A stretch of DNA of 43,468 nucleotides. Source: Chromatiaceae bacterium (lineage in GTDB: Bacteria > Pseudomonadota > Gammaproteobacteria > Chromatiales > Chromatiaceae). The translations under genes were made by a program, and so were the position numbers. Within the stretch, counting starts at the first letter, position 1, and each line of letters begins with the position of its first letter. The notes beneath the pieces are model-generated. The model was not told the origin of the DNA. It searched no databases and was given only the letters and a program-made list of their open reading frames with translations. Shown one piece after another: positions 2,748 to 29,108 of this stretch. The DNA lies in contig JACDZG010000057.1 of the NCBI GenBank assembly GCA_013426805.1, positions 1-43,468 of the forward strand. The letters run 5' to 3'.

Positions 2748-4910
2748 TCACACAAACAACGGTGCGGGCAAAGGCTGATACCGATCGAGCAGCCCCTTGA
2801 GCCAGTCGGTGCCGACAGCCAAAGCGGCATTCATGGGAGCATTCAAGTTCTCCCAGAACCGGCTCAAATAGGGAACCCACGATCGACTTTCGTCTGTGGA
2901 TGCGCGAATTTCAGCCTCGATCCATGCCCCCAAGGCACGCTTTGCGCGATCCCGCTCGCCATCGCTCGCTGCGCTGGAGTGCAGGGTTTGCAAGTAACGC
3001 CAAAGCCGCGTCTCCAAGGGAAATTCCTGCTGGACCGCGGGTTCGTACCGATCGAGTATGTCGGTCTCCCATTGGCCTTGCGCCACGGCACGCCGCAGGG
3101 CCTGCGGTAGAGGCAGCACGCGGTCGATCGACGATGGATCTTCGGTGGGGGGCGGGGAATCTTCCGCCGCGGTCCAGGTACGAATCGACTCGGCAAAGGC
3201 CAGCCAAGCGGGGTCGCGCTCGGGAAGAACGGGGCCGCTGTTGGCGGGTGCCTCGCTGTCTTCGTACTCGATCGGTTGCTCTTGCGACACCAACTGCCTA
3301 CGGCGCAGCAGTTGGCGCAGATAACTTTCGGCACGCAATTGATCAGGATAGCGGCCCGTAAACCGCTGCAGATGGTCAATGGCCGTCTCCAGGGCGCCCA
3401 CGTCTCCACGCCGGGCATAGGCGGTTGCCAGCAGCACTGCGCAGGCCGCGTCGGCCGGGTCGATCTGCAGGCCCCGTTGGGCATGGTTCAGCGCCTGGGG
3501 CCAGTCCCCGCGACGAATCGCCAGTTGCGCCAAGGTGGAATAGGCATGCAGATTCTCGGGATCCAATTGCAGCACCTGCTGCAACAGGCGCTGTGCCTGG
3601 GCCTGTTCGAGGGGGTCGCTGGACGCCGCCAGCAAACGCGCCAGCTCGACGCGGCAGGGCAGATGGTCGGGAAAGCGTCGGATCATTTCCCACAACACCC
3701 ATTGAGCGCGCTGCGGATAACCCGCCTGGCGCAACACCAACTCCCAGAGCATCCACCGCCTGGGATCATCGGCGTCCATCTGCAAGGCCAAGTGTATCCA
3801 CTGGAACAGGCGTCCCTGGATCTGCGGATCGGGTATGGTGTACTGGTTGCACAGGGCGCGGGCGCACCTGTCGAGGGTCCGCACAAAGTCGTATGCATCA
3901 CCCGACTTATGTACGAAGTCTTCGTGAGCGCTGAGTAGGGGGCGAATGGCGTTCCATGCCTGCTCCAGGCTGCGGGAGCGGCGCACGTCTTCGACGGCTT
4001 GGTCGGTCTCTGGTTTTTGGCCTGGCGGCTCGAGTCTGTATACTGCGCTGGAGATGGTGGCGGCATTGCGCTGGGTCAGCGCGGCATTCGAGAACCCCAG
4101 CAAGCGCAACACCGAGATGGACGTATCCTCGCCCAGCGGGGCGAGCAGGGTGGTCAGGAAGGCCCGGTAATGGGCGGCATTCAGGCTTGGGTTTCGCGTC
4201 ATGACTCCGAGCAGGGCCTGCGCCAGATCCTCTTGGGCCGGTGCGCCCCAACCCTTGCGGTGCTGATAGCGATTGATGAGCGCCTGCACCTGCAACCGCA
4301 GGTTGCGCAGGCTGTCCTCTTCCGACAGGGGCAGCCTGGCCAATGCCAGCAGCCCCAGGTTGAGGTACCGCGCGGAGCGGGTGCGCCCCGCCTCCATCAC
4401 GAATGCGTGCCAGAAGATTTGTAATTGGTCGTCGGTCTGGTGAGAGGCCAGTACCTGCCAATAATCGTACTCGGGGTCGCGATAGGCCGAGAGTGTGAGC
4501 GAGCCGAGCCATTTCAGCCAACGGACCCGGTCGGCCTGCAACGCCTTGCGGGTTTTCGGCAGTTCAAAATACAGCGGCCATTGCAATGCCTCGCACACCT
4601 GGTCGGCATAAGCGCCCAGCTTTCTCGCGGCTGGTTTGGCAGCCTCGCGTTGTGTCATCAGCCAAGCCGACAGGCCGGTATCCAGGTAGCCGGGCAGGTC
4701 GGTGTTTGAATCCCGTGCCGCCGCGGTCGAACGGGGCTCACCGAGCAATGCGCGGGACAGGATGCGACTGTCGCTGGGCAAGATCGCCAATAAGAATTCA
4801 TGCGGCGTCGCGCGCTCGAAAGGGCTGATGTCCGCGGCGCCGCGCAGCAAGTCCGCGACTGCCTGCTGGGGTGCCTGGCGCAGTTCGTCGGCCCATCCAT
4901 GCCAGCTCAT
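2748..4910 (-). CDS. TPR protein 1, partner in X-TPR module copy 1
   Basis: 720 residues, no signal peptide. The N-terminal half (to about residue 320) is helical and matches the other two TPR partners in this window by a weak pattern around FWHAFVMEAGRTRSARYLNLGLLALARLP and by HEDFVHKSGDAYDFVRTLDR, which corresponds to the GDSYYLVRCFER and GDSYNLAYSATR segments of the others. Tetratricopeptide-type helical pairs follow at about residues 365-530 (for example LLQQVLQLDPENLHAYSTLAQLAIRRGDW-P-A). The C-terminal 180 residues have no recognisable domain. The ATG overlaps the stop of the upstream X1 gene as ATGA, so translation is probably coupled. Most likely a scaffold or sensor acting with X1; function unknown. 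Confidence 0.8.
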   Translation of the reverse strand: MSWHGWADELRQAPQQAVADLLRGAADISPFERATPHEFLLAILPSDSRILSRALLGEPRSTAAARDSNTDLPGYLDTGLSAWLMTQREAAKPAARKLGAYADQVCEALQWPLYFELPKTRKALQADRVRWLKWLGSLTLSAYRDPEYDYWQVLASHQTDDQLQIFWHAFVMEAGRTRSARYLNLGLLALARLPLSEEDSLRNLRLQVQALINRYQHRKGWGAPAQEDLAQALLGVMTRNPSLNAAHYRAFLTTLLAPLGEDTSISVLRLLGFSNAALTQRNAATISSAVYRLEPPGQKPETDQAVEDVRRSRSLEQAWNAIRPLLSAHEDFVHKSGDAYDFVRTLDRCARALCNQYTIPDPQIQGRLFQWIHLALQMDADDPRRWMLWELVLRQAGYPQRAQWVLWEMIRRFPDHLPCRVELARLLAASSDPLEQAQAQRLLQQVLQLDPENLHAYSTLAQLAIRRGDWPQALNHAQRGLQIDPADAACAVLLATAYARRGDVGALETAIDHLQRFTGRYPDQLRAESYLRQLLRRRQLVSQEQPIEYEDSEAPANSGPVLPERDPAWLAFAESIRTWTAAEDSPPPTEDPSSIDRVLPLPQALRRAVAQGQWETDILDRYEPAVQQEFPLETRLWRYLQTLHSSAASDGERDRAKRALGAWIEAEIRASTDESRSWVPYLSRFWENLNAPMNAALAVGTDWLKGLLDRYQPLPAPLFV

Positions 4911-5905
4911 GCCATCACCTCGCCAAAGCTTTCACAGCCAGGTAAACGCCGTAGGCCCTGCACATGGCGGTTGCGGGCCGCCAGAACCGACTCGTCCTCT
5001 TGGAGCCCATGCTCCCTGGAAATGAATCCCAGGGCCTTGATATGTCGGGGCTGGTAATCGATGGGAAAGGTAAGCAGTTCAGGGGTGAAGGAGTCGGTGA
5101 CCTCGGTGCCCGCCAAATCCAGCGTGTATCCGTAGCTCCTGTTTCCAGGCAGCAGTGGCGCGGGGATGAAGGCCGCGGACATTTCCGAATCCAGTACGGT
5201 CGGACGGGAAAAGCTCGATACCGCGCCCTTCCTGGTGGCCATTGCGCGAGCCTGTCGCACCTCGTCCAGCGTGAAGCACATCAAGGCCACCGGGAGCGGT
5301 CTACCCGCCGTGCTGGGCCAATGAGTCAAGCCCAGACGATCACGCAAAAGATGTGGCCAATCGGTTTTCACCAATTGCTTCAAGTCGCCGCCAAAATCGT
5401 TGAGAAAGGTAGCGAACATGGGACGAGCCTGAATGCGTTGGGCATTCCATTGCGTTACAAACTCGGTGCGTAATGCCTCATCGGTGTCGGACAGTGAGTT
5501 TTTCCTCAGGTCTTTTTGTGAATTGAAGAAGCGTTGCCAGAAAGCCTGGGCAAGGTCGGCTACCAACGGTTGGTCAAACAAATAATCTATTGACTCCAGC
5601 CGCAACAGAAAGGTGTTGTCGAGGTGCTCGTCAAGCGTTGCTCTGCTATTCACGGCCATGAAGCAGTCGGCGCTTCTCGGCAGGTCCTTCGGGACATGGA
5701 CAAAAGAACTCACATAGCCCTTGTGTTCTGCCTTCCAATCCTTGTGCGAGCTGACTTCTCCGACATATGCGTTGTATTCTGCCGCGCGCTCATCGGCAAC
5801 CGCGCGCTCCCAGCGGAAGTTCCCTGCCGTACAACGCGCTGTCGTCCCCGCCGGGGACGCGACCGCATCTGAAGCAAGCTCGTGCAGCGGTGGGCTAAGG
5901 TCCAT
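4907..5905 (-). CDS. X1: unrecognised protein, module copy 1
   Basis: 332 residues from the ATG at 5905 (MDLSPPLHEL). The frame stays open to 6088, but this start gives a length close to the homologue X2 (338) and aligns with its N-terminus. I do not recognise the family. Features shared with X2: a head with AGNF..E, an aromatic Y and W..EHKGYV; a middle with RPMFATFLND and LRDRLGLTHWP; and an end with RPTVLDSEMSAAFIPAPL, GYTLDLAG and a YQPRH motif. No transmembrane segment or signal peptide. The stop overlaps the TPR1 start (ATGA). Base composition is somewhat lower in GC than the housekeeping genes, compatible with transfer. The start choice is uncertain because only a weak, distant GAGG precedes it. 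Confidence 0.72.
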   Translation of the reverse strand: MDLSPPLHELASDAVASPAGTTARCTAGNFRWERAVADERAAEYNAYVGEVSSHKDWKAEHKGYVSSFVHVPKDLPRSADCFMAVNSRATLDEHLDNTFLLRLESIDYLFDQPLVADLAQAFWQRFFNSQKDLRKNSLSDTDEALRTEFVTQWNAQRIQARPMFATFLNDFGGDLKQLVKTDWPHLLRDRLGLTHWPSTAGRPLPVALMCFTLDEVRQARAMATRKGAVSSFSRPTVLDSEMSAAFIPAPLLPGNRSYGYTLDLAGTEVTDSFTPELLTFPIDYQPRHIKALGFISREHGLQEDESVLAARNRHVQGLRRLPGCESFGEVMA

Positions 5906-6245
5906 AAAATTAAGACAATACCTCAAGCCGTTCGGGGTCCAAAGAAATTGGTGGTAGACCACGGATTCGTGTTCATCAGCCGAGGACGCCTGCGACCGAC
6001 CGCGGACCGGCTGTTGCAATGCGCTCGGAACTGCCGGCCCCGTGATCGCTGTGCACCACCCGCCCTCTATGGTGCCCGGCGAGAGCAACGAGCGACGCTC
6101 GCGCGGCCGGAGTCTGCTCGCTCACGTGATCGCAGCGGCTGGAAATGATAGCACTGCGCAAGGCGAGCCACGACGGATTCGATTTGGGCAGCGGTCGCTT
6201 CCAGTGACAGATCGCAGCGATGGTTGGCCAGGTTCCTGAGCGATT

Positions 6246-6319
6246 CGGCCTACAGCACCGGCAGTGCCGTGCGCTCCACCACCCGCCACAGCACGAAACC
6301 GGAGTGGACGCCGGTCACG
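6246..6319 (-). pseudogene. Remnant of the 3' end of an Lrp/AsnC gene
   Basis: These 74 bases align without gaps to 24397-24470, the last codons and stop of the intact Lrp gene, with only a few differences. Translated on the minus strand they give VTGVHSGFVLWRVVERTALPVL and a stop, against VTGVHSSFVLRRVVERTALPVL in the intact gene. The rest of the gene is absent. It lies upstream of X1 in the same orientation, as intact Lrp lies upstream of X3. The surrounding 5906-6503 holds nothing else I can support. Confidence 0.85.
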
Positions 6320-6503
6320 TGATTCCGCGCGGCGTTTGGTGCGAGGGGTGGTACGTGAAGCGTCAAGCAGCGGAGGCAAGCTGTTGTTCCCTCTTCGCGC
6401 GCCCGCGGACAAGAAGTTTTCGTGGTACGTCCCCGGTTTCCCCCCGATTGCCCCGCCTGTCCAGTCGGCCGGAGGCGGCGCCCCCGGCCGGCCGCAACCT
6501 TCC

Positions 6504-8813
6504 CTACTGCAGCGGGGTCAACCGCGCTTCGCTCTGGTTGCGCTGGTAGAGGTTGAGGTACCCGCACCGGCCGAAGTGATTGCGGGAAGGGTATGGCGTG
6601 TCCGACTGCTGGATGTCGCCTTCCCAACCAGGGCCGTTCGAGATATAGGTCTTGAACTCGAACCAGCCGTCGGCGGTCCGGCTACAGTCCATCTCCACGT
6701 CCAGCATCCAGTAGTGCGGTCCCTCCCGATTCAGCGGCTCGACGCCGAAGCCGTCGGCGGCCACCGTCCGTGCGGGAGGACCCCAGGCTGCCGGCCAGGT
6801 GTTGGTCGTCCAGTCGAGCGGCGTGCCGGCGGCCGGCATACCGTTCGAGATACCGGTCTGATTGGGTTCGCGGCCATACCAGTCCAGCGCCTCGTCACCT
6901 TGTTTCCAGGGATTGGTCGTCGCGTTGCGGAGGTTCAGGTGGTGAATCGGGACGGCACACCGGTAGTTGGAGACCGTGCAATCGCGGTGCAGGGTCGCTT
7001 TGGCATAGTCGTGATCGATACCGCCGCGTATGAACATGTCCTGTCCGGGAACGGTTTCCGCCTTGATCAGCACCACCGTCCGCGCCCATTGGCCCGCATC
7101 CGGGGTCTTGGCGCCGACGTGGATGGCTGTCGCGGTCCAGGGGGCAACCTGGAAGCGCGCGGTGCCGCCGGCAGCGACGGTGATCACCGACCCGGTGCAG
7201 GCCCCGTCGACCAGCTCGCCGTCCCAGGCATTGCAGTAGCGGCCGGCGCCGAGCCCGGTCTGCAGGGTCTGGTCGAGTGGCGCAGCCTCGCGGTTGATGA
7301 CCACGAAACCCAGGGCGCCGCGTCCGAACGCGATCTGGTTGTTGCCGTTGTCCCACCAGTGATCGACGTGCCAGGCCGGCAGCGTACTGTTACGGAAGGC
7401 GACCATATTGGCGATCGGCCGCCAGCGGTGCTCACACATCCACCGGGCGCCGGCGTCGAAACAGGCATTGCGTGCGCCGGGACCATCACCGTCCCAGACC
7501 CGCTGGGTCGTCCAGTTGGCGGCAGCGGGATAGTCCGCCGCCTCCAGCACACCCCGGTGGAGACCGTCATGCGGTGGTCCGAGAAAATCATCCTTCACCG
7601 GCATGGCGACGACGCTCGTGATGTCCTGCCCCGGATTCTGGTCGAAGCGCCAGATCTCGCCGTTGCCGAAGCGGTAACTCGACATCACACTGGGATAGCC
7701 GTAGGGCCAGGCCAGCATGAAGACGTTGGCCAGGGTATAGGCGCCCAGGTTGTTGCGGATGTCCTTGATGACCTGCCCGCCGCCGCCATGGCCGCGTTGA
7801 TTGTCATGGTTGTCGATGAAGGCGATGGACTGGACACTGGCCTGCAAGCCCCAGCCCTCGCCAAAGGGGACTTGGCCGTGCAGCAGGGCGAGCGGACCGC
7901 CCAGGAACTTCTCCGCCAGTTTGCGGCCGTATTCGAACTCGGTGACCTTGCCGTTGGCATAGGCCGCACCGGGATCGGCCGGCGTGCCGATGATCTCCTG
8001 AAAGACCAGTACCGGCCGCGCCCCGCCGGGATTGATTGCCGTATTCTCGATCCGCACATTGGCCGCCGCGGCGGCCTTGGTGAGGATGGCATGCAGATCG
8101 GCGGGCGCCAGGTGCTTGGCCGCGTCGATGCGCAGGCCGTCCACTCCCAGGGCGAAGAGGCTGGCCAGATAATTGGCGATGGTATTGCGAACGTCATCCC
8201 GCTCCGTCGCCAGGTCGGCCAACCGCTCCAACTCGCAGTTGAGGTCGCTGGTACAGGCGTGATGGAAGTGCTCGGCCTGATAGGCCGGCAGGGCCCCGGC
8301 CACGCGGCCGGCGTCCGCGGGCTCGAACAGGTTTGCGAACGCGAAACCGCCCGGCGTAAAGGTGGCCCCGGCGACCCCGCGGTTCCCGTACTGGGGCTGC
8401 TGCTGGTCGCAGTCGGGACGGCAACTCGCCATATGATTGATGATCGCATCGACATAGACCTTGACGCCGGCCGCATGGCAGCGCGCGATCATCGCGGCGA
8501 ACTCCTGCCGAGTCCCGCTGCGGCTGGTCATCCGATAGCTCACCGGTTGGTAGCGCTCGTACCAGGGGCGCCCCAACAACAGCCGATGTTCGTTGGGCGG
8601 CGAGACCTGGACCGCGGCGTAGCCCTTGGGGCCGAGAAACGCCTCGCACTCGCGCGCAATGTCATTCCAGGTCCATTCGAACAGATGGACAAAGGCGGTA
8701 CGCGGCACCGCCTCGTCCGCCGCGCTGCCGGTCGCGGCAAGCAGCAGTGCCGCCATCAGGAAGCACCTGCGCGGCCCGCCGCCTAACCACCCGCACCAAT
8801 CCGATACTTTCAT
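6504..8813 (-). CDS. Secreted alpha-amylase, GH13, animal/Alteromonas type
   Basis: 769 residues; endo-hydrolysis of alpha-1,4 bonds in starch or glycogen. A signal peptide covers about residues 1-32 (hydrophobic FLMAALLLAATGSA). The GH13 motifs are all present: DAIINH (122-127), GLRIDAAKH with nucleophile D230, FQEIIG with acid/base E273, and FIDNHD with D337. The motif set and the PYGYPxVMSSY block (369-380) place it with chloride-dependent animal-like amylases. Of the usual chloride ligands R228 and N335 are kept, but the third position (Arg or Lys in relatives) is S375. After the all-beta domain a roughly 210-residue C-terminal region starts near WARTVVLIKAETVPGQDMFIRGG; it resembles extensions of Vibrio/Aeromonas amylases and may bind starch. 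Ribosome binding site GAGG precedes the ATG. Confidence 0.93.
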   Translation of the reverse strand: MKVSDWCGWLGGGPRRCFLMAALLLAATGSAADEAVPRTAFVHLFEWTWNDIARECEAFLGPKGYAAVQVSPPNEHRLLLGRPWYERYQPVSYRMTSRSGTRQEFAAMIARCHAAGVKVYVDAIINHMASCRPDCDQQQPQYGNRGVAGATFTPGGFAFANLFEPADAGRVAGALPAYQAEHFHHACTSDLNCELERLADLATERDDVRNTIANYLASLFALGVDGLRIDAAKHLAPADLHAILTKAAAAANVRIENTAINPGGARPVLVFQEIIGTPADPGAAYANGKVTEFEYGRKLAEKFLGGPLALLHGQVPFGEGWGLQASVQSIAFIDNHDNQRGHGGGGQVIKDIRNNLGAYTLANVFMLAWPYGYPSVMSSYRFGNGEIWRFDQNPGQDITSVVAMPVKDDFLGPPHDGLHRGVLEAADYPAAANWTTQRVWDGDGPGARNACFDAGARWMCEHRWRPIANMVAFRNSTLPAWHVDHWWDNGNNQIAFGRGALGFVVINREAAPLDQTLQTGLGAGRYCNAWDGELVDGACTGSVITVAAGGTARFQVAPWTATAIHVGAKTPDAGQWARTVVLIKAETVPGQDMFIRGGIDHDYAKATLHRDCTVSNYRCAVPIHHLNLRNATTNPWKQGDEALDWYGREPNQTGISNGMPAAGTPLDWTTNTWPAAWGPPARTVAADGFGVEPLNREGPHYWMLDVEMDCSRTADGWFEFKTYISNGPGWEGDIQQSDTPYPSRNHFGRCGYLNLYQRNQSEARLTPLQ

Positions 8814-8869
8814 GGTCCTCTGTCCTCACGATGATGGTTTTTATAATCAGGACTCCCGGTCCACGGATC

Positions 8870-9464: not shown

Positions 9465-12152
9465 TCAGCGTCGCCCCAGCCGCTCGATCCGCAGTCGCGG
9501 CGCGAACGCGTACAGGTCGACGATACGCACCGTCGGCGTCTTATCGCGCCGCGCGCCGGTCTCGACAATCCCGAGATCCTCCAATGTCTTTAGAGCCGCG
9601 GCCGGGTCGCTCTCGCCCGCCTGCTCCAACGCATGCAGAAAGTCATTCCGATCTTGATACGACTTGAATCCGGTGAGCCGCTCGACGTGCGAGCGTTGCT
9701 CCTGACCGCTCTCGGTTATCAGCTCGTTCAGCCTGCCTTCGGAAACGTCCGGTATGGCGTCGCGCAGCGAGCGCGGGTCCAGGAGCGGAGGGGTCTCGAT
9801 CCGCTCGGACTTGCGGGAGCGCACGGCGGAGTCGAGCAGCCAGAGCGCGGCCCGCGGATAGAGACGCCCGTTGCCGTCCCGCAACCGCTTCGCTGCCCAT
9901 ACCGTGGAGCGGGTGTTGCTGGCCCCGGTGCCGAGCCGCTCGCCCCAAATCAAGGCCAGGGCGCCCTCCCAATCCTCCTGCGGGATTTCTTCCAGATTGT
10001 GAATCCGGATGCCCTGTCCTTCGAGGTGCCCGCGAAACGCCGGTGAGGCCGCTGCCATGGCGCGTACGATCAGACGCCAGATGTCGTCGGCAAGCCATTT
10101 CAAAGTCACCTCGCGCCGCTGGTACTTGGCCTGCTCCTCGGTCGCCAGACCATCGAAGATATCCTTGCGCAGAAAGATCTTGACGCCGAGGTGCCGGCTC
10201 GACATCCAGGACGCATTGGCCTGATCCAACAGGCCGACGATCATGCCGCGGCGTCTCGCGATGGCCTCGTGGCTCTCGCCGAGCGCGACATCCAGGTCGT
10301 CGAACAACAGCGTCACCTGCTTGCCTTCGTGCTCGCACCAGGCGTCCATCGCCCGCCAGGCGTCGCTGATTAACAAAGGCAAACCTTTCCCCAATAGTGC
10401 GGAGACGGCGTCTAAGACGGCCTGCTCGCCATCCGCTTCCACGAGGCCATTCAACAGTTGGAGCATTGCCCGATCGGCAGCGGACAGGGACACGGTCGCC
10501 GAATAGGACCATTCGCGGTCAAGGACAGCGGTGCAACGCCCCAAGGCAAGCACCGACCACACCTCGCTCCACCGGTTCTCGAATTGCTTGTCCAGCGCGC
10601 GCAGCAGGTTCTGGGATGCCGGCGGCAGCGCTCCGCGACCGCCGCGCGGGCTGGCATAGCCCTCGACGAAGACCGTATTCTGGAGTGCCGGGACCTGCGC
10701 ACGATGTTGAAGAAGCGCCGGCTGCTCCAGGCAGATGCGCCGCAGATAGCTCTTGCCCGTGCCCTTGGCCCCCAGCACGAGACAGGTATCTTGGCGGACG
10801 AAGAGGTCCAGATCGGGCGTGCGCGTGAAGAGATCGGCCAGGATTTTCGAGTCCGGCTCGCTTTCCGCCTGGGGTACCGGAACCTTTGCCTCCCGGATGA
10901 CCGTGGCCGCCCAACCCTCATCGATCCGGCGGAAGGAGAGTGGCAAGGGCGGGGGCTGGATGCGCTCGGCGAGTTCCCGATAGCCCTCGCCAAGACCGCT
11001 GACCAAGAGCCCGCCCTCGTTTTCGACGATCCGGGCCGAATAATCGATGGTGACGATGGACGCCTCGGGCGGTAGATCTGCGGGCGGCGTCTCCAGTATC
11101 TCAGCAATTCCCTGGCGGGCCATTTCGAGTTGGAGCGCGAACTCTTCGACGCAATTCGCACGCGCATCGTCTCCGGCCGGCAGCATGGCGGCGACGAAGT
11201 GAATGAGTCCCGGCCGCCCGCGCGCCCGGCGGCTGCGCTCCAATGCGGCGACCGCGGGGACCAGTGATGGATAGGTGGACGGTGCGGGCGAGGCGAACAG
11301 CACCACCTCGTCCGCCAGGTCCAGAACAGCGACGGCCGATTCGTCGCAATAACCGGAGCGGGCGTCCAGAAGGACAATCTGTGCCCCGGATGCGCGCACG
11401 GCCGCGCGCAGCAATCGGCGCAGCGGGGGGCGGATGCCGCTGTACAGGACGCTCGGCGAGAGCGGCCCCAAGAGCGCATGGACGAATGGGATATCCGCCC
11501 CGGCGGGACCGAGTACCTCGACCAGGCTGCCGGCACCGGTCGCGGGCAAGAGACAGCGTTGCACCTCCCGCTCAAGGGCCTCGTCGCCGAGACTTGGGTC
11601 TGCGGCCATTCGCACCAAGTCCTCGAAGCGGGGGACGCCGTCCGAGTCTCCGGTCATGGCGCCGACCAAGGCCGGCGACTCCAGGTCAAGGTCCACCGCG
11701 AGGACCTTGACCTGGCGCTGCCCCAAGAGCAATGCGACATGCGCCAAGGCCGTGGAGCGGCCCACGCCGCCCTTCAGCCCCCAGAATGCAATGGTTTTGA
11801 CCCCATCCGGTAGGCCGCGATCGTCCGGCTCCGGCGTCTGCGGCTCCAGCATTAGCGCGTCAGCCCAGTTGGGCGTGCCGATCAGGCGTTGGGAGAACAG
11901 CCGCTGCTCGTCGTCGTCCTCCAGATCGTCCGGGGACTTGAGCAGGGTTAGGGTGCGCTCGGGCAGATGCAGATCCTTCTGCTCCAGCCGCTCGCTCAAT
12001 AGCCCCAATGGGTCATCCGCATCGGCGAAGTCATCTGCGAGGACGCGCAGATCGACAGACCCGGCGTGCCCGCGTCGGACGACAAGGCGCCGGGGGTGAA
12101 ACAGGTCTTCGATGGCATGTCGCAGGTCGGATAGCGAGGCTTCGGTCGTCAT
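9465..12152 (-). CDS. ParA/MinD-like + P-loop ATPase fusion (KGGVGR motif)
   Basis: 895 residues with two nucleotide-binding modules. The first (about 115-400) is a ParA/MinD-type domain: deviant Walker A KGGVGRST (127-134), then DLDLES (154-159) and VLLDARSGY (260-268). The conserved KGGVGKT lysine is arginine here, a known variant in which the remaining lysine is the first one. The second module (about 435-800) has a classical Walker A GAKGTGKS (461-468) and Walker B VTLLFDDLD (614-622), in the style of STAND/AAA ATPases. A winged-helix-like C-terminus (about 850-895, ALKTLEDLGIVETG) ends the protein. No membrane segment. It is divergent from the two ATPase genes at 12373-15643. Probably a sensor or conflict-system ATPase; function unproven. 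Confidence 0.82.
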   Translation of the reverse strand: MTTEASLSDLRHAIEDLFHPRRLVVRRGHAGSVDLRVLADDFADADDPLGLLSERLEQKDLHLPERTLTLLKSPDDLEDDDEQRLFSQRLIGTPNWADALMLEPQTPEPDDRGLPDGVKTIAFWGLKGGVGRSTALAHVALLLGQRQVKVLAVDLDLESPALVGAMTGDSDGVPRFEDLVRMAADPSLGDEALEREVQRCLLPATGAGSLVEVLGPAGADIPFVHALLGPLSPSVLYSGIRPPLRRLLRAAVRASGAQIVLLDARSGYCDESAVAVLDLADEVVLFASPAPSTYPSLVPAVAALERSRRARGRPGLIHFVAAMLPAGDDARANCVEEFALQLEMARQGIAEILETPPADLPPEASIVTIDYSARIVENEGGLLVSGLGEGYRELAERIQPPPLPLSFRRIDEGWAATVIREAKVPVPQAESEPDSKILADLFTRTPDLDLFVRQDTCLVLGAKGTGKSYLRRICLEQPALLQHRAQVPALQNTVFVEGYASPRGGRGALPPASQNLLRALDKQFENRWSEVWSVLALGRCTAVLDREWSYSATVSLSAADRAMLQLLNGLVEADGEQAVLDAVSALLGKGLPLLISDAWRAMDAWCEHEGKQVTLLFDDLDVALGESHEAIARRRGMIVGLLDQANASWMSSRHLGVKIFLRKDIFDGLATEEQAKYQRREVTLKWLADDIWRLIVRAMAAASPAFRGHLEGQGIRIHNLEEIPQEDWEGALALIWGERLGTGASNTRSTVWAAKRLRDGNGRLYPRAALWLLDSAVRSRKSERIETPPLLDPRSLRDAIPDVSEGRLNELITESGQEQRSHVERLTGFKSYQDRNDFLHALEQAGESDPAAALKTLEDLGIVETGARRDKTPTVRIVDLYAFAPRLRIERLGRR

Positions 12153-13503: not shown

Positions 13504-13522
13504 CCGCAGGGGAGTGCGTGCG

Positions 13523-20572: not shown

Positions 20573-20729
20573 CCGTCGCCGTCCTCGCCGACGGTTGGTC
20601 CCTCCGGTGCGAGCTTGCTTGACGCGGCGCAATCGCAACCGGACTCCTCATTCAAATGCCCCCTCGACAGCGGCCGGTCGGATCGCAGGTCTATACTGCG
20701 CCTCATCCCCCAACCGCGGAGCTGCCCCC

Positions 20730-21311
20730 ATGTCCCTGCAACCCAAACTGCAACTGACCTTCGATGACTGGCTGGAAGGCGAGCGGGCGTCCCTGGAGGG
20801 GCGCAGCGAGTACCTGGACGGCGAGGTCTTCGCCATGACCGGGGCGAGCGTCGAGCACAACGCTATCGTCGTCAACATCGTCAGGGAACTGAGCATCCAG
20901 ATGAAGGGCCGGCCCTGCCAGGTCTACGCCAACGACCTGAAGGTGCGCATCCGCCCCGCCGACGCCGGCAAGTACCCGGATTTGATCGCCCTGTGTGGCG
21001 AGCATCAGTTTCAGGATGGCCGCCGCGACGTGCTGCTCAATCCCAGCCTGATCGTGGAGGTGCTGTCGGACTCGACCGAGGCCTACGACCGCGGCAAGAA
21101 ATTTGCCATCTACCGCCAAATTCCGAGTCTCAGGGAGTACCTCTTGGTCTCTCAGCACCAGGTTCAGGTGGAACTGTTCAGTCGGGGTGACGACGGCCGC
21201 TGGACCCTATCGGACTATTCCGCCCTGACCGACAGCGTGCCCCTGCCCGGCGTCGGTTGCACCCTGTCGTTGGCGGAGGTCTACGATAAGGTGGATCTTA
21301 AGCCTGCCTGA
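20730..21311 (+). CDS. Uma2 family endonuclease-like protein
   Basis: 193 residues from the ATG at 20730, which has GGAG upstream; longer in-frame starts cross non-coding-looking sequence. The Uma2 family (PF05685, PD-(D/E)XK fold) is shown by FDDWLEGE near the start, YLDGEVFAMTGAS..HN (about 30-50), KYPDL (about 88-92), the strand NPSLIVEVLSDST (110-122), and RGKKFAIYRQIPSLREYLLV. Uma2 proteins are present in many copies in cyanobacteria and some Chromatiaceae; their role is not established. It is convergent with the TPR3 gene, 39 bases away. Confidence 0.88.
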   Translation: MSLQPKLQLTFDDWLEGERASLEGRSEYLDGEVFAMTGASVEHNAIVVNIVRELSIQMKGRPCQVYANDLKVRIRPADAGKYPDLIALCGEHQFQDGRRDVLLNPSLIVEVLSDSTEAYDRGKKFAIYRQIPSLREYLLVSQHQVQVELFSRGDDGRWTLSDYSALTDSVPLPGVGCTLSLAEVYDKVDLKPA

Positions 21312-21350: not shown

Positions 21351-23411
21351 TCAAATCACTTGTGCTGCGGCTAACCAGTCCTCTTCCGCCGCATCGCGGC
21401 GGTCGGCGAAGGCCGCTTCCTGGTAGACCCAGGCGTTGCGCTTGAGGTCTTCCGGGTCGTCCGCGCTCACCCGCGTTCGCGGCAGGTCCGCGTCGCTGAG
21501 CACCCGGATGATCGGCTCGAACTGCGGCAGGTCGCGCAGCAATGGTGCCCAGTCCACCGCCTCGCCGGCCCGCCCGCGACTGCGTTGGGCGTAGATGCGG
21601 GTCACCGACTCATAGGTCTCGCGGGCACCCCACCACTGGGCGGCAGCGGTCCAGCCGTCGTTGGCGGCGATCAACAGGCCCTCTTCCACGTCGTGCTCCG
21701 GGCCGGCGCAGAGGCGCTTGATCGCGGCCCGGGCCAGGTCGTGTTTGCCTGCCTGACGGAACAGAGTGCTCGCTCCCAGGGCCGGGGCCTGGGCCAGGCC
21801 CCGACCGGCAATGTCGGCCAGGGTGTTCGGGTCGCCGTCCTGGCTTTCGTGCGGCACCTGACGGTGCCGCGGCTGGAGATTGCCGGACCGGGCGAAGTCG
21901 AGAAGACGAGCCAACTCGCCCACTTTCGGGTCATGGGCTCGTTGCTGGGCATCAAGCCGCCGCGCGATCTCCAACCAGCGCCCTGCCTCCTGCAGGTCGC
22001 CGATCTGGATCAATGCATCCGTGTAGTCGTTGCACAGCGGGAGGTGGGTTGGATGGGCCGTGACTGCAGAACCTAGTACCGGCAATGCGGCTTCGGGTCC
22101 GTTCAGCTCCAGCAATGCGTGGCCGTAACCGGCCAGAGCCACCGGATTGCTGGGGAAACGGCGGGCGGCCTCAGCGTAGGCAGCCAGGGCTGCAGCGTCC
22201 TCGCCGCGGCGCAGTAGGGCGTGGCCGAGTTGAGTATGCGCATAGGCGTCAGATGGGAAGCGGCGACGGGCGTGCCAGAAAACGGCACGGGCCCGGGTCC
22301 AGTCCCCGGCGGCATCCAGGGCCGCACCCAAGGCCGCCCAGTTATGGTGGTTAGACGGCGCAAGACGCAATGCCTCATGGGCCAAGTCTGCGGCTTGGAT
22401 AGGATCGAACGGGCGCAATTCCCTGGACAGACGTTCGAAACATCGCACCAGGTAATAGCTATCCCCGGTGTCCTGCACGTACTGGCGGTGACCAGCAACC
22501 AATAGTTTCAACCGCCCCTGTGCGGCCGCGCGCCCAGAGACCTGAATCAGGCTCACCAACTCGCTCAACTCGGCCGGCATAGGCAAGCGCGGAGGCGATC
22601 CACCCTGCCGGGGAGCTTTGAACGCATTGGGCACGGCCGCCTCCAGCCAGGCGCGCGCGTCGGCCTCCATTTGGCGCTTGCTGTCCCCGATCTGTTGGCC
22701 GATTGCCCGGCGCAGGGGCTTGGACAGGGTGGCAGGTGTCATGGATTGCAGGGCGCAGATGTAGGCAATCTCATCGTTCATGGCGTCCGGGCCGGCGCGA
22801 CGCCTCGCCAGCCCCTCGGCGAACTGGACCAAGCCACCGAAGAATCCCGGGGCCAGGCCCGGACGACTGGGGTCGGCCGGGGGCAACAGACGCAGCCCGA
22901 CGAGGGCGGCACGTCCCTGCCACAGCGGCGTTTGACCCTCCAGCCGGGAGAGGCGCAGCCAGAAGGGCTCCAGCGAGCAATCCGATTGTGCGTTGGCCAG
23001 GGTCGAGAACAAAGCATCCAGGGGCGTGGCCGGTCCACCGACCTCCAGTGCCTCCAACCAGCGATAATCGCTGGGCGCGCGGCCTTGCAGCCAGCGTCGG
23101 CACTCCGGGAGTCCGAGCAAATCCACCGCCCGCAACGCCTCGGCCAGTGCCTGGGCATAACGGCGCGTGCGCAGCCCATCCACCGCTGTCTTGCCCCAAT
23201 GCTCACGCAGCCAACGCAGGACAATGGCGTCGAGGGTCTGGCCCGGATCGGCAACGATCTGACCCAGCGCGACCGCGGCCGGCAAGGTGTTGAATGCGCC
23301 CAGGTGGGCGCGGCCGGTGAGTGCCTGGTCCAGTGCCTCCAGGGGACGCAGCCGGAAGTGCTCCAGCCAGTCACGGGCGGCCTGATCAGCGGGGGCGGCG
23401 GCAGTGCTCAT
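21351..23411 (-). CDS. TPR protein 3, partner in X-TPR module copy 3
   Basis: 686 residues from the ATG at 23411, whose first bases overlap the X3 stop (ATGA). The N-terminal region carries the module signature: FWLRLSRLEGQTPLWQGRAALVGLRLLP, parallel to WWQLCELPPDQPWYRGHCGIVGLRGLP in TPR2, and later VQDTGDSYYLVRCFERL. Four or five TPR units follow around residues 340-500, for example AWHARRRFPSDAYAH-like and AEAARRFPSNPVALAGYGHALLE. The C-terminal 180 residues are helical without a recognised domain and end near AAEEDWLAAAQVI, faintly like the RLEEDWVRRY end of TPR2. Cytoplasmic; function unknown. Confidence 0.8.
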   Translation of the reverse strand: MSTAAAPADQAARDWLEHFRLRPLEALDQALTGRAHLGAFNTLPAAVALGQIVADPGQTLDAIVLRWLREHWGKTAVDGLRTRRYAQALAEALRAVDLLGLPECRRWLQGRAPSDYRWLEALEVGGPATPLDALFSTLANAQSDCSLEPFWLRLSRLEGQTPLWQGRAALVGLRLLPPADPSRPGLAPGFFGGLVQFAEGLARRRAGPDAMNDEIAYICALQSMTPATLSKPLRRAIGQQIGDSKRQMEADARAWLEAAVPNAFKAPRQGGSPPRLPMPAELSELVSLIQVSGRAAAQGRLKLLVAGHRQYVQDTGDSYYLVRCFERLSRELRPFDPIQAADLAHEALRLAPSNHHNWAALGAALDAAGDWTRARAVFWHARRRFPSDAYAHTQLGHALLRRGEDAAALAAYAEAARRFPSNPVALAGYGHALLELNGPEAALPVLGSAVTAHPTHLPLCNDYTDALIQIGDLQEAGRWLEIARRLDAQQRAHDPKVGELARLLDFARSGNLQPRHRQVPHESQDGDPNTLADIAGRGLAQAPALGASTLFRQAGKHDLARAAIKRLCAGPEHDVEEGLLIAANDGWTAAAQWWGARETYESVTRIYAQRSRGRAGEAVDWAPLLRDLPQFEPIIRVLSDADLPRTRVSADDPEDLKRNAWVYQEAAFADRRDAAEEDWLAAAQVI

Positions 23412-23875
23412 AGCGGGATGCCTGCTGCGAATTGATCGTGGCCCGCCCACAGTCTCACCCAGTCCAGGTGGCAGCGACGCCGACCGGACAGTGACAGAGC
23501 GGGGTCCAGCGGCCGGTCAATGTAGGCGACCGCCCAGCAATGCTCCGGTTGGTAGTCGAAGCAAGGGTGGAGGAATTCGGTACGCAAGACGGTGATCGGG
23601 TCCTGGGGTTTGAGATTTCCACCGTTCTCGGGGCCAAAGGTCCAAGGGTGCGCAATAGCCCCGATCAGTTGGACTTGATCAGCAAGAAAATCGCCGTGCC
23701 GGGTGCGCCACTCGCCCAGATCCGCGACGGCTTCGCGTCCGAAGTATTTCCGGTAAGTGGAGCGGAGACTTGCCGGGAGGCGCTGCTCCATCAAGAAATT
23801 TCCGGCAATCGCCCGGTGACCGGCGTTGGCCCCTTGGAGCAGGTTGTCGAAAAGTTGTGTCAGTGAATCGTGCAC
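23408..23875 (-). CDS. X3: short form of the X protein, module copy 3
   Basis: 155 residues from a GTG at 23875 with AGGGA 7 bases upstream; an ATG at 23929 would add 18 residues. It has both ends of the X family: the head AGNFLMEQ, YRKYFG, EWRTRHGDFLADQV, which matches X2 ARNFLLDE, SYRDSG, WCAQHGKYLKQRV; and the tail LRTEFLHPCFDYQPEHCWAV, which matches REVLHPTLAFGARHLWRI. The middle of about 180 residues (with LRDRLGL and PTVLD in X1 and X2) is absent. The frame is intact and the ATGA overlap with TPR3 is kept, so this looks like a genuine compact form rather than a pseudogene. It may show the minimal unit needed to work with the TPR partner. Confidence 0.75.
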   Translation of the reverse strand: MHDSLTQLFDNLLQGANAGHRAIAGNFLMEQRLPASLRSTYRKYFGREAVADLGEWRTRHGDFLADQVQLIGAIAHPWTFGPENGGNLKPQDPITVLRTEFLHPCFDYQPEHCWAVAYIDRPLDPALSLSGRRRCHLDWVRLWAGHDQFAAGIPL

Positions 23876-24034
23876 TTGGGTCCCTGAGCGCTGGCCGATC
23901 GCTTTGCGATCATAGCAAATCCGGTTCATGGAGTAACGCGGGCAAGGTCGGTTTTGCCAGAGCCCCGTCGAGACCGCCGGAAGGTCGGCACGTATGACCG
24001 GCCCTCGTCAGTCCTCTGCCGGATCGGCGGCATG

Positions 24035-24283: not shown

Positions 24284-24400
24284 GGTGGGCCTCCGTCTGT
24301 GGGAGTCGCTGACGCTGGGGTCCGGATCGAGTTCACGGCGTAACGTAGCATGTAGTCTGTCCTCGCCGAGGTGGAATGAGTTTGGTTTCTGAAACGCGGC

Positions 24401-24865: not shown

Positions 24866-24944
24866 GCATCTTGCCCTGCGCTGGCGGCTGATCGATGTGC
24901 TGCTGTTTATTGCGGCGAAATATTAGCAGAAACTTGCTTAACTC
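24853..24944. repeat. 92-bp direct repeat, left copy (Lrp start and promoter)
   Basis: Aligns gap-free to 29129-29220 in the same orientation; the two copies share the first Lrp codons and the upstream operator. Together they bracket module copy 2 (X2-TPR2). Confidence 0.85.
24924..24939. promoter_or_regulatory. Candidate Lrp-type operator
   Basis: TAGCA-N6-TGCTT, A-T rich in the centre, in the Lrp upstream region. It resembles the Lrp consensus YAGHAWATTWTDCTR with one extra base. Autoregulation is likely but inferred. Confidence 0.45.
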
Positions 24945-25125
24945 ACGCCGTTTCTCGACATCTTTTCGTCCCTCCGCCGGGAGTCAGTATCTATTGTCGC
25001 CTAACAACGACCCTCAGAACCCTAATCCGCAGGAGTCCGGCAGGCTGGTCGGTAGGGTTCCCAGAGTGCTTATAGTGGTAGACTTTTACGGTTGCATTTT
25101 GGACATATCTGGAACGAAACGGACG

Positions 25126-26142
25126 ATGGGACCGCTCAGCACAACCGATTCCGGCTTTCGCGCCTTTCTTGACCGGATCTCCGCAGATCCAGCTCAGTAT
25201 CGAATGGCTGCCCGAAACTTCCTCTTGGACGAAGGCATCGCTCCCGCTCGTTGCGACAGTTACCGCGACAGTGGGGCCGCCGTGGATCATGCCGACCGCC
25301 CGGCGTGGTGCGCTCAGCACGGGAAATATCTGAAACAGCGGGTCTTTCGGCCGACCCCGGACACCGGCCTACCAACGGAGATCGATGCGGCAGACGAGGA
25401 TCTGTGCCCTGAGACTTTCCGCCTGGTCGTGCCGGGATCGCCCTTTGCTTCCAGCGATAAAGCGCTGCACCTCGTTCGTACTGAAGAACTCTCCTTCGTT
25501 GCCCGTTTGAGCGGCGTCCCACCAAACCGCCTGAAGGACTTGGCTCGGGACGTGGCGCAGCGCGGGACCGCGGCCGGCGGCTTCGCGGCGCTCGATAGCG
25601 CGCTACGCACCTGGGCCAAGCAGATCGACCTGCGCCCTACTTTCGCCGCATTCTGGGAGGATCTGTCCGATCTCTTCGGTGCTGTGCCGGGTGCGGACCC
25701 CGACGACTGGGCAGATCGGCTTCGCGACCGGCTCGGTTTGGCGCACCTGGATCCTGGCGCGCGCGGCGGACCCATCGACGTGCTGGTCTTTCGCTACGCG
25801 ATCGGCAGTCTGGCCCGCATCCTGAGCCGCGGTGCCGATGTCCGCGCGCTGGTGACGCCGACCGTGCTCGACGGCACATTCTCGGACGCCTTTTGCCCCG
25901 CCCCGCTCGGCGCCATGACCGGACATACCTTAGACCTGAGCGGTGCTTGCGAGGGACCAAGGCGCGAGGTGCTTCACCCGACCCTCGCCTTCGGTGCGCG
26001 TCACCTGTGGCGCATCGGGACCGTCAATGCGTCGGCGGATCTCGCATCGTTGGGGACCCTGCGCGGTCTGCACCTCGTATGGCTGCGCGAGCAGTGCGGC
26101 AGCGCGGACTATGCCGCGGACACCGACGGGGATCTGCTATGA
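25126..26142 (+). CDS. X2: unrecognised protein, module copy 2
   Basis: 338 residues from the ATG at 25126; the frame is open from 24895 but the upstream translation (SRRFSTSFRPSAGSQY) looks non-coding and has no match in X1. Shared X-family motifs: head ARNFLLDEG..C.SYRD and WCAQHGKYLKQRV; middle LRPTFAAFWEDL and DWADRLRDRLGLAHLDP; end TPTVLDGTFSDAFCPAPLGAMTGHTLDLSGA, REVLHPTLAFGARHLWRIG and LHLVWLREQCG. No membrane segment. The last codons overlap TPR2 by ATGA. Family unknown to me; the strongly conserved PTVLD and AF-PAPL blocks could be a binding or catalytic site. Confidence 0.78.
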   Translation: MGPLSTTDSGFRAFLDRISADPAQYRMAARNFLLDEGIAPARCDSYRDSGAAVDHADRPAWCAQHGKYLKQRVFRPTPDTGLPTEIDAADEDLCPETFRLVVPGSPFASSDKALHLVRTEELSFVARLSGVPPNRLKDLARDVAQRGTAAGGFAALDSALRTWAKQIDLRPTFAAFWEDLSDLFGAVPGADPDDWADRLRDRLGLAHLDPGARGGPIDVLVFRYAIGSLARILSRGADVRALVTPTVLDGTFSDAFCPAPLGAMTGHTLDLSGACEGPRREVLHPTLAFGARHLWRIGTVNASADLASLGTLRGLHLVWLREQCGSADYAADTDGDLL

Positions 26143-29108
26143 ATCTCGACCTTGATCGCATCTTCGGCGGCGGCCGTGTGCCGGATTGGCTGCGCACCTT
26201 CGCCGCTGATCCGGATCTGGCCTTGCACAACCTGGTGCTGGGCCGGGCCGAACTGGGCCACCTGACGGTCGCGGACCCGGTGGATCTGCTGCTGGGTTGG
26301 CTTCGCGCCCTCGGCAATCGGACCGACTTTCGTGCTCAGGTCGATCAAAGCCTCTCGTCCTGGATCGTCCGCAATTGGGGGCTCATCGAACTGCCCGGCG
26401 GCGCCGACAGCGCGACGCTGACCAGCGCCGCCTGGGTTCGTGTCGGCGAAGTGCTGGCGGCAGCGCCAACCCTGACCGCTGCCGGGGACGCGCTTGCTCA
26501 GCGTGTGCTCGCCGACCGGCGTTACCTCAACAGCCTCTGCGAGGGGCGCAGTCGTGATCCCCAAGCGGCTGCCTGGCGCGCCCTTGCCGCGCACCAGCGC
26601 GACCGCTCGCTCTTGCCGACCTGGTGGCAACTCTGCGAACTCCCTCCGGACCAACCCTGGTATCGCGGACACTGCGGGATCGTCGGTTTGCGTGGCCTGC
26701 CCGCGGAGTCCGCCGCCCGGGCCGGCGGTTTTCCCAAGGAGGTGGCAGAAGGGCTGAACCGTTTCGGTCTCGCCTTGTGGCGATTTCAGGACGAGGGCTG
26801 GTTGCGCCCGGACCTGGCCGCGGAGGAGTTTCAGGACGCCCTGCGTCTCTGTCTCTCGGCCTACCCCTTTCCGGATCGCTGGATGTCGTTCTGGCGCCAT
26901 GTGCTGCGTCGTGACTACCGCCGCGGGGACCTTGGACCCTGGATCAGGCAGCTTCTGCCGCGGGTGGCGGACGACCAAACGGGCAAGGGATCCAATAAGC
27001 CGAACTGGGTCAGCTACGATCCGGCATGGTCCGACCACCGTAACTCCATCGCCGAGAAACTGCGCCGAGGCAGCGAAGGCGCGGTCATTGAGGCGAATTG
27101 CTTGCTGGCTGCTCAGCGCCGTTACTTTGATCATAGCGGTGATAGCTATAACTTGGCTTACTCCGCTACGAGGTTCTCAGCCGCAGTACGCCAGGGTCAG
27201 CCGGCTCAGGCTTTGCTGTGGGCGCGCGTTGCCAAGGAGGTCGAGCCTTGGAATAGCTATGGCTGGACTAACGAAGGCCAGGCCCTATTGGTGCTGGGCG
27301 ATCGGATCGCGGCACTGGAGGCTTACCGTGAGACCAAGGCGCGGTTCCCCGACAACGCCGTCGCCCGCAATGGATTGGCAGAGGTCTTGAAGGCGCAGCA
27401 CCGATTCGCAGACGCAGAGGCCGAATACCGCGAGACCAAGGCACGGTTCCCCGACAACGTCTTCACCCGCAACGGACTGGCCGAGGTTCTGAAGGCTCAG
27501 GGCCAATTCGCAGACGCGGAGGCGGAATACCGCGAGACCAAGGCGCGGTTCCCCGACAATGTCGTCGCGCACACTGGGCTGGCCGCAGTTCTGAAGGCTC
27601 AGGACCGATTCGCAGACGCGGAGGCCGAATACCGCGAGACCAAGACGCGGTTCCCCGACAACGTCGTCGCCCGCAAAGGACTGGCCGAGGTTCTGAAGGC
27701 TCAGGACCGATTCGCAGACGCGGAGGCGGAGTACCGCGATTTGAAGACGGCCTACCCGGAATCGCTGGTTCCTCGCAATAACCTGATCTTCGTATTGAAA
27801 GCCCAGGGGCGATGGGACGAGGTCGTCACCGAACACCTGGAGGCAATCGACCTGTTCCCGGAGAACGTGCACCTGCACATGGGCCTGGGGGCCGCACTCG
27901 TCCAAGCGAAGCGCCTCGCCGAGGCCGAGGCTCATTACCGCCGGGCCCAGGAATGGTTCCCAGACGAGCCGTTTTCCTACGCCAAGCTGGCGGACATCTT
28001 GGTCGCCCAAGCGCGTTTCAGCGAGGCAGAGCATGCGTATCGCGAGGCCCGGTGTCGTGCTTCCGACAGCTTCGCGATTTGGGTCGGTTTGGCCCGCGTT
28101 CTGGATCGGCAAGGGCGGACGGAGGAGGCGGAGGCGGAATATCGGGCCATGGAGGAGCGATTCCCCGATAAATGCGTGCCGCGCGGTCATTCGGATGAGA
28201 TCCCCGACAGTGTGCCCGAGGACACAGACAGCGCGGTGATGACCGACGAAGGCGACATCGCCCCGCTGGAGACCGAGTTACCCGGTACGGTCTCGGCGTC
28301 CGTCGTTGAAGATTCGCCGGCCGATGTCAAAGCCCCTGCGAAGACCCCGCCAGTGCCGGGCGAGGAGCTATGGCTCAACCGGCGGGAGATCGATATCGTT
28401 GCCGGCGACGCCTTCCTGATCCGGGGCTGGGCGCGCGCGGCCGGGACCTACGATCCCGACGCGCTCCCTGGCCGATTCCGCGAGCGTGCGGCTGTGCTGC
28501 TTCAACGGCTGCTGCCGTCGGTGGACACCGATTCGGTAGCTGCCGGGGAATCGGCCCTCCTGGAGCTTGACGACGGGGCCCTCGCTGAGGGACTGGCGTT
28601 GCTGCGTCGCGCCGTCCAACGTTTTCCCGGCAGTGCCCGGGTGCGCTACGCCCTGGCCCGTGCCGAGCGCGAGGCGGTCCAGGGCGATCCGATCACATCC
28701 TGGCGGCGACTGCTGCGCATGGACCCGCATTACGAGCCCATCGTCTACCTTGGTGCCGGACGCGCTTGGCTGGGCCGGATGGCCCAGGACGGCGCCCAGG
28801 CCGAAGGCCAGGCGCGCGAGATGTTCGGCCGACTGGGGTACTGGATCGATAAGCACATCGAGCCGCTGCCGGGCTTTGATCCGAATGATCCGCAAGCCGA
28901 GCCGCGTACCAGTTATCGCGCGCAGCGAAAAGGCGATTTCTCCGGGTGGTGGGGTATTGAAGCCCAGGCCGAACTGTTCGGCATGCGCCCGGTTGCGGGA
29001 TGGGACGACCTGGATGATTTGGGACCGATTCGCGAGCGGATACTGACAAGAAGCGCCAGCCTCGACCGGCTGGAAGAAGACTGGGTGCGCCGATACGCCC
29101 GGGCTTGA
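26139..29108 (+). CDS. TPR protein 2, partner in X-TPR module copy 2
   Basis: 989 residues, start overlapping X2 by ATGA. The N-terminal 390 residues carry the shared module region (WWQLCELPPDQPWYRGHCGIVGLRGLP; FDHSGDSYNLAYSATRFSAAV). About eight 34-residue TPR units then run from about residue 395 to 670; the first four (27321-27728) are nearly identical to each other and read as EYRETKARFPDNVVARNGL. A linker rich in E and D (about 690-745) leads to a C-terminal domain that ends LDRLEEDWVRRYARA. The longest of the three TPR partners, 270-300 residues larger because of the repeats and linker. Probably a protein-interaction scaffold; function unknown. Confidence 0.82.
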   Translation: MNLDLDRIFGGGRVPDWLRTFAADPDLALHNLVLGRAELGHLTVADPVDLLLGWLRALGNRTDFRAQVDQSLSSWIVRNWGLIELPGGADSATLTSAAWVRVGEVLAAAPTLTAAGDALAQRVLADRRYLNSLCEGRSRDPQAAAWRALAAHQRDRSLLPTWWQLCELPPDQPWYRGHCGIVGLRGLPAESAARAGGFPKEVAEGLNRFGLALWRFQDEGWLRPDLAAEEFQDALRLCLSAYPFPDRWMSFWRHVLRRDYRRGDLGPWIRQLLPRVADDQTGKGSNKPNWVSYDPAWSDHRNSIAEKLRRGSEGAVIEANCLLAAQRRYFDHSGDSYNLAYSATRFSAAVRQGQPAQALLWARVAKEVEPWNSYGWTNEGQALLVLGDRIAALEAYRETKARFPDNAVARNGLAEVLKAQHRFADAEAEYRETKARFPDNVFTRNGLAEVLKAQGQFADAEAEYRETKARFPDNVVAHTGLAAVLKAQDRFADAEAEYRETKTRFPDNVVARKGLAEVLKAQDRFADAEAEYRDLKTAYPESLVPRNNLIFVLKAQGRWDEVVTEHLEAIDLFPENVHLHMGLGAALVQAKRLAEAEAHYRRAQEWFPDEPFSYAKLADILVAQARFSEAEHAYREARCRASDSFAIWVGLARVLDRQGRTEEAEAEYRAMEERFPDKCVPRGHSDEIPDSVPEDTDSAVMTDEGDIAPLETELPGTVSASVVEDSPADVKAPAKTPPVPGEELWLNRREIDIVAGDAFLIRGWARAAGTYDPDALPGRFRERAAVLLQRLLPSVDTDSVAAGESALLELDDGALAEGLALLRRAVQRFPGSARVRYALARAEREAVQGDPITSWRRLLRMDPHYEPIVYLGAGRAWLGRMAQDGAQAEGQAREMFGRLGYWIDKHIEPLPGFDPNDPQAEPRTSYRAQRKGDFSGWWGIEAQAELFGMRPVAGWDDLDDLGPIRERILTRSASLDRLEEDWVRRYARA
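27321..27728 (+). repeat. Four tandem 102-bp TPR units, nearly identical
   Basis: Units start at 27321, 27423, 27525 and 27627, each 102 bases (34 codons). Differences are few (for example NAVARNG, NVFTRNG, NVVAHTG, NVVARKG). Similarity at the DNA level shows recent expansion; later units have diverged. Confidence 0.85.

Follow-up and report, generated by a model that had tools for sequence, protein, structure and literature searches.

A Co-inherited Two-Gene Module of a Conserved-Core Protein and a TPR Partner in Chromatiaceae

Three X–TPR Gene Pairs Within One Locus

The window, i.e., the whole 43,468-nucleotide stretch of Chromatiaceae DNA analyzed here, contains three gene pairs, each consisting of a gene for a protein termed X and a gene for a TPR protein termed T. 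An earlier note on this DNA had described three such pairs, each joined by an ATGA overlap. All six open reading frames (ORFs) are indeed uninterrupted at the coordinates claimed there, and the overlap is exactly 4 bases in each of the three pairs. X1 (4907–5905, minus strand, 332 aa) is a full-length member of the X family and belongs to clade A, and its partner T1 (2748–4910, minus strand, 720 aa) carries the T N-domain followed by diverged TPRs. X2 (25126–26142, plus strand, 338 aa) is also full-length. T2 (26139–29108, plus strand, 989 aa) combines the T N-domain with a TPR array and a long C-terminal part, and the near-identical repeats of its array (27324–27739, plus strand) have a period of 102 bases with 4.1 copies and 86% matches. 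X3 (23408–23875, minus strand, 155 aa) has a GTG start and an in-frame internal deletion, and T3 beside it (21351–23411, minus strand, 686 aa) is open end to end. Counting X3, the genome of the window holds six X and six T, paired one to one.

Between these pairs lie several further genes, some of which resemble parts of defense systems. A Hachiman-like pair is located at 16605–17432 and 17363–20572 (plus strand); the first gene matches PDC-M23A (E 5.7e-6) and the second PDC-M23B (E 1.5e-170) as well as HamB models. A Uma2-family gene (20595–21311, plus strand) separates this pair from T3, and Uma2-looking ORFs were also seen by eye upstream of the X–T pairs in loci L020 and L024. The minus strand encodes a PDC-M28B/C-like NTPase of 895 aa (9465–12152) with a ParA-type P-loop part and a PDC-M28C match in its second half, as if PDC-M28B and PDC-M28C were fused. 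It is followed by two overlapping ATPase genes on the plus strand (12373–13503 and 13490–15643), the second of which shows STAND/NACHT-like and winged-helix matches that fall under or close to the cut-off. The module genes are flanked by a WD40-repeat protein (1328–2452, minus strand) and a protein with RCC1 repeats and CARDB (31324–33438, minus strand).

X1 and X2 are full-length homologs (28% identity over 328 columns, E 2e-18 in BLASTP). The sequence blocks that the earlier note had listed for all X proteins thus stand for these two, but X3 is without LRDRLGL, PTVLD, and PAPL. In BLASTP X3 matches X2 with E 1e-5 and X1 with E 0.003–0.009. Against the family profile the values are 1e-95 for X1, 2e-87 for X2, and 1.5e-29 for X3, and those of the T N-domains against their profile are 1e-74 to 3e-94; scores are inflated for X1, X2, and all three T N-domains, which are rows of the profiles concerned, whereas X3 is not a row. 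The relatedness of the three X proteins is thus borne out.

All three T are TPR proteins according to Pfam (E 2e-11 for T1, 4e-32 for T2, and 5e-10 for T3 to TPR models). In BLASTP T2 and T3 match each other with E 4e-17 to 9e-21, T1 and T3 with 4e-7, and T1 and T2 most weakly with 7e-4. The N-domain is specific to the family and predicted to be all-helical. In the structure model of T3 (pLDDT 57) the TPR region is confident; Foldseek aligns the model with TPR proteins and further helical-repeat proteins, and these matches are uninformative on the N-domain. No strongly hydrophobic segment (19-residue mean of at least 1.6) was found in 30 X or 25 T.

In 8 of 29 T the array is composed of near-identical repeats, with neighboring 34-aa units at least 80% and up to 100% identical. 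These are T2 (88%) and the T of loci L027, L075, L077, L081, L118, L119, and L120. Array length differs among these proteins, and in these 8 the TPR array looks like the fast-changing part. The T of L118 (7838–10741, plus strand) has nine such units with a mean pairwise identity of 93% and that of L120 (4537–7587, minus strand) eleven with 86%, both belonging to clade B described below; in the related clade-B T of L119 the array is frame-broken. The other 21 T, T1 and T3 among them, are without a near-identical array.

X3 Deletion and Broken Partners

Compared with its nearest relative, the X of L087, X3 retains roughly 98 residues at the N-terminal end and 57 at the C-terminal end, with a stretch of about 175 missing in between. 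The junction lies near 23570–23590 (LRTE/FLH) and both flanks match L087 in frame. Similar short sequences (ESL and TEFL) are present at both sides of the gap. A disrupted X beside an open T was found in the window (X3) and in L025 of genome G007. An open X beside a broken T was found in L119, where the frame break lies in the array, and in L022, where T stops after 319 aa with the end of the contig 130 bases away. Because breaks hit either partner without a one-sided pattern, the idea that X is lethal when free of T is not supported.

X and T Are Inherited Together

X and T form a genuine module of two genes that overlap or abut and are inherited together. In clades A and B there are 42 X loci, where G548:C237, which agrees with L027 in length and match, was counted once with it, and T lies directly downstream of X in 39 of the 42. 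The truncated X of L085 and L124 have no T match, and the X of L046 is a fragment running off its contig. Spacing could be measured at 35 of the 42 loci: T starts from 17 bases before to 16 bases after the X stop, with an exact 4-base overlap at 22 of these 35. Even the degenerate X of L121 and L123 each have an adjoining piece of T, and the X at the contig ends of L053 and L065 are followed by the first 32 residues of T (E 1e-5). Some T are cut at contig ends or masks, or are broken, and in G527:C1087 T lies at the contig end with the X side out of sight. A recurring third gene beside type A and type B pairs was not seen by eye in the lists of neighboring ORFs.

Clade B accounts for five of the 35 measurable loci (L118, L119, L120, L122, and L146). 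With hhalign its X aligns to clade A X with a probability of 99% (E 1e-16, 280 columns) and its T to the clade A T N-domain with one of 94% (E 2e-7, 215 columns). For 29 pairs the X and T trees have 20 of 26 splits in common, and the X–T distance correlation is 0.954 (0.919 for clade A alone) with none of 2000 permutations as high, which is expected for tightly linked genes even without interaction.

Twelve comparisons among related genes, five of X and seven of T, all gave a dN/dS of 0.12–0.31, synonymous change being saturated in several of them. The highest value for a part of a gene was 0.41, in one T C-terminal part. In the trees X2/T2 group with L027, whose X, from a Candidatus Thiosymbion MAG, is 71% identical to X2, and T3 is nearest to the T of L087 (64% identity over 691 columns). 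T1 is placed with L019/L084 at 0.98 and X1 elsewhere at 0.51. The ratios reject diversifying selection across whole genes, and the suggestion that the three versions reflect a diversifying system is not supported, X2/T2 and T3 having their nearest relatives at outside loci instead of in the window.

The Core of X Recurs in Other Operon Types

The X family has the core pattern RDRLGL ... PTVLD ... F.PAP ... G.TL.L ... E..H ... R..H. The core domain, 4910–5359 (minus strand) in X1 and 25708–26139 (plus strand) in X2, is the portion common to other operon types. In the core profile (22 rows, X2 numbering) T246, E281, and H316 never vary and position 249 is always D or E, whereas R313 occurs in 21 rows and H284 in 20; with only one type-C row and no type-D row in this profile, residue counts across types are provisional. 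H284 is replaced by T in X1, where the E..H motif reads ELLT, and by S in L086 and L089. The conserved polar residues (T246, D/E249, E281, H284, R313, and H316) suggest, from their conservation, an enzyme or ligand-binding domain. A predicted structure of X2, based on an alignment of X1, X2, X3, and the L027 X only, reached a pLDDT of 34 and was set aside.

The core profile matches 20 of 334 genomes; apart from the window's own, all of these belong to the second class described below (Magnetococcia). Type C was found at seven loci (L147, L176–L180, and L182), with the core protein followed by a middle protein (ORFs of 366–530 aa) and, at six of the seven, by a third ORF of about 790–830 aa. 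From its motifs, read by eye, we take the start of this third ORF to be PIN-like; a Pfam scan at E 0.05 gave no match in three third-gene and two middle proteins. Type D was found at two loci (L181 and L183), where the core protein and a middle protein precede a ParA-like NTPase with TPRs. These NTPases match PADLOC PDC-M28B with E 4e-23 and 1.5e-18, the second mainly in the P-loop part. L183 has a short core ORF of 168 aa, and by BLAST the middle proteins of the two loci do not resemble each other. Type A and B modules have no NTPase gene.

In hhalign comparisons of the cores, A and C align with a probability of 95% (E 2e-8, 70 columns) and B and D likewise with 95% (E 7e-8). Weaker values were obtained for A and D (61%, E 8e-5) and for B and C (59%, E 1e-4). 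Because the direct C–D comparison gave 0.2% (E 0.34), the link between these two types depends on A and B. No kinship of the T N-domain with the two type-C partners or the type-D middle protein was apparent, hhalign giving a probability of at most 1.4% in seven comparisons. We consider it quite possible, while stopping short of calling it probable, that the X core defines a superfamily of its own, made up of enzymes or signaling domains of conflict systems, with at least four operon types (A with a TPR partner, B with a TPR partner that can bear about 9–11 near-identical, expandable repeats, C with a middle protein and a PIN-like nuclease, and D with a middle protein and a ParA-like NTPase–TPR protein).

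Taxonomic Range

A profile of 11 X matches 12 of 194 sampled genomes of Chromatiaceae and 15 of 398 of the phylum, the window's own genome included in both counts. Apart from the window's family, the phylum sample yielded 14 matches, and every one of them belongs to a single second class, represented by 48 genomes. Because a MamA match over the cut-off is found in 37 of these 48 genomes and in 0 of 14 control genomes, we read this second class as Magnetococcia. X is present in 15 of the 48 Magnetococcia genomes and missing from 33. Within the sample of the window's own class it occurs solely in the window's genome (1 of 229). The host may be a Thiodictyon, to judge in part from the best plasmid match of a neighboring gene (47% identity) and from the Candidatus Thiosymbion match of X2. 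All genome counts are samples, which include the window's genome except in the second class.

The T N-domain profile follows X closely. It matches 14 of 398 phylum genomes, all within the 15 with X, 13 of the 48 second-class genomes, again all within the 15 with X, and 12 of 194 Chromatiaceae genomes. G121 and G171, which have X and no T N-domain match, are clade B with a diverged T beside X. In the family set X without a T match occurs in G039 (clade B) and G604 (the truncated L085), and weak T fragment matches without X occur in G055 and G573. A BLAST match in G083 (E 4e-4, with internal stops) was dismissed as an X relative as the profiles gave no confirmation. T is present in 4 of 8 genomes of the window's genus, and two species (G000:C296 and G002:C111) have kept X–T copies with the same surroundings. 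Judged from these searches, X is patchily present in two lineages, the purple sulfur Chromatiaceae and the magnetotactic Magnetococcia. This range is a lower bound, since the profile searches covered the window's phylum and the contig search used a single protein query and reached close relatives only.

Searches of Family, Structure, and Mobile-Element Libraries

The earlier note knew of no named family or defense system with this pair, and the libraries agree: X and the T N-domain are without significant match in Pfam, PADLOC, and PDB, and profile searches match X to no characterized family. In Pfam and in NCBIfam, the latter scanned with the window's own proteins, X1–X3 match 0 families at E ≤ 1. 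When 30 X members were scanned against Pfam, the best single-member E was 0.012 and no family was common to two members; four clade-B X gave no match. With PADLOC 2.0.0 X1, X3, T2, T3, and two clade-B X had no match, and the best values were E 0.046 (PbeD) for X2 and E 0.022 (PrimPol, over the TPR stretch) for T1. Profile searches of PDB reached E 1.4 and 0.094 for the X profiles and 0.023 for the T N-domain (a four-helix bundle). In NCBIfam T1–T3 score below all curated cut-offs and the T N-domain has no significant match, and GreA/B or PIN are absent from the Pfam matches of T1–T3 at E ≤ 1.

Among 72,556 plasmids there was no match for X2 and T3, one clade-B X had no match in the plasmids or in 50,697 phages, and X1 had none in viral contigs in a search sensitive to close relatives only. 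An earlier description of the X–T pair was not found in open PMC papers. For the libraries and open PMC papers searched, the X–T pair is new at the level of family and module.

Genes Beside X–T Pairs Elsewhere

Neighboring genes were scanned for 27 loci with 149 ORFs, i.e., up to six nearest per locus, mechanically chosen from 206 kept of 249. At E 1e-10 they match 25 PADLOC models with one ORF each, among them ten PD-T4-6 and two PDC-S03, and the rest include DRT, Mads, helicase, and caspase models. The best 25 of 150 Pfam families are mostly metabolic. With a scan that covered X–T neighborhoods alone, these neighbors speak neither for nor against a defense setting. By eye, a degenerate X–T pair in L121 (about 1–8500, genome G009) lies near helicase-like and caspase-like ORFs.

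Possible Function of the Module

Our preferred reading, offered tentatively, is a conflict system in which X acts as effector or signaling enzyme and is held by the TPR protein. X and T, paired by genomics, would bind each other as two parts of one complex, and T, to judge from how the genes overlap or abut, would be made together with X. The T N-domain would be the X-binding end and the TPR superhelix may bind another macromolecule, the C-terminus of T being variable. T would keep X inactive until the TPR array meets a trigger, e.g., a phage or other foreign protein; X would then be activated and produce a signal or harm the cell.

The held-effector reading is consistent with the pairing at 39 of 42 loci, the agreement of the X and T trees, the T genomes of the phylum and second-class sets lying within the X genomes, the polar residues conserved in the core, and the near-identical arrays in 8 of 29 T. 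A defense role is further favored by the Hachiman-like pair, PDC-M28-like NTPase, and STAND-like ATPase in the window, by the PDC-M28B-like NTPase of type D, and by the patchy presence (4 of 8 genomes in the genus and 15 of 48 in the second class). However, none of the libraries assigns X an effector domain, and because of this and of the pLDDT of 34 for the X2 model the term enzyme draws on conservation. Purifying selection is unlike what a fast-evolving sensor would show, H284 is replaced in X1, L086, and L089, the neighbors elsewhere are mixed in a scan of X–T loci alone, and the proteins tried have no plasmid or phage match. The partner breaks are not one-sided, and we graded the reading lower because an open X occurs beside a broken T.

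A serious alternative, to which we likewise give limited credence, is lineage-specific cellular machinery outside defense. In an assembly or signaling task T would then serve as TPR scaffold or chaperone, with X as its client or cofactor. Low dN/dS in 12 of 12 comparisons, the mostly metabolic families among the best 25 of 150 in the neighborhood, the setting kept in G000:C296 and G002:C111, and the restriction to two lineages are in line with it. Against it stand the absence from 4 of the 8 genus genomes and 33 of the 48 second-class genomes, the six copies in one genome, and the re-use of the core with unrelated partners. Because the core recurs with PIN-like or ParA-like NTPase–TPR proteins, a conflict system, in defense or self-recognition, is somewhat likelier than a housekeeping one. 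A toxin–antitoxin pair, with one protein as a stand-alone toxin and the other as its direct inhibitor, would also explain why the two genes overlap or abut and are almost always paired, and why they occur patchily and in several copies per genome; we regard it as improbable, as the proteins are large (about 330 and mostly 650–1000 aa) and have no recognized toxin domain, those tried have no plasmid match, and each partner occurs open beside the broken other. Many relatives of the X–T hosts form aggregates, which together with the unequal array lengths and near-identical 34-aa units in 8 of 29 T would fit kin or self/non-self recognition, where expansion of repeats would make the TPR array a recognition surface that varies between strains, with X signaling any mismatch. 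This too is unlikely, as such arrays are lacking in 21 of the 29 T (T1 and T3 among them) and none of the 30 X and 25 T has a strongly hydrophobic segment.

If the held-effector reading is true, two well-separated proteobacterial lineages share a class of module that the annotation and defense libraries searched have missed. The conserved core points to particular residues for mutation, and a pair of only two compactly arranged genes is easy to transfer to a laboratory host.

Comparison With Known Systems

Pfam includes VMAP models, and these match none of the X scanned. In both type-D operons the NTPase gene in third place matches PDC-M28B of the PADLOC candidate PDC-M28, whereas the PDC-M28 models match neither X nor the type-D middle gene. 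T shares ordinary TPR repeats with TPR_CcmH_CycH, PEP-CTERM PrsT, and the Slam N-domain, but its scores to these stay below the cut-offs and its N-domain is unmatched.

The EAD10/effector–TPR–GreA/B-C–PIN proteins (PMC8195603) combine TPR and PIN, and the type-C relatives of X adjoin a protein that reads as PIN-like from its motifs. In the available parts of that article, however, these proteins are mostly stand-alone fusions with GreA/B-C, whereas T1–T3 are without GreA/B or PIN. Not all of the 13 effector domains are identified by name there, so that X may be one of them.

Another close comparison is with the modular conflict systems of multicellular bacteria, namely VMAP, iSTAND, and TERNS3 ternary systems (eLife 2020 e52696, PMC7159879; eLife 2021 e70394, PMC8195603). 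As far as the available parts of these two papers go, the systems are built on MoxR and vWA, whereas no such match is among those listed for the 18 window ORFs scanned, and neither family is among the best 25 of 150 Pfam families from the 149 neighboring ORFs at 27 loci. In the same parts Thiohalocapsa and Lamprocystis are named as hosts of modular conflict systems. Like these systems, as described there, X–T consists of adjacent genes with a constant component and changing partners, contains repeats (TPR or other), and occurs in several copies per genome; if a conflict role is shown, the X–T pair would belong among them.
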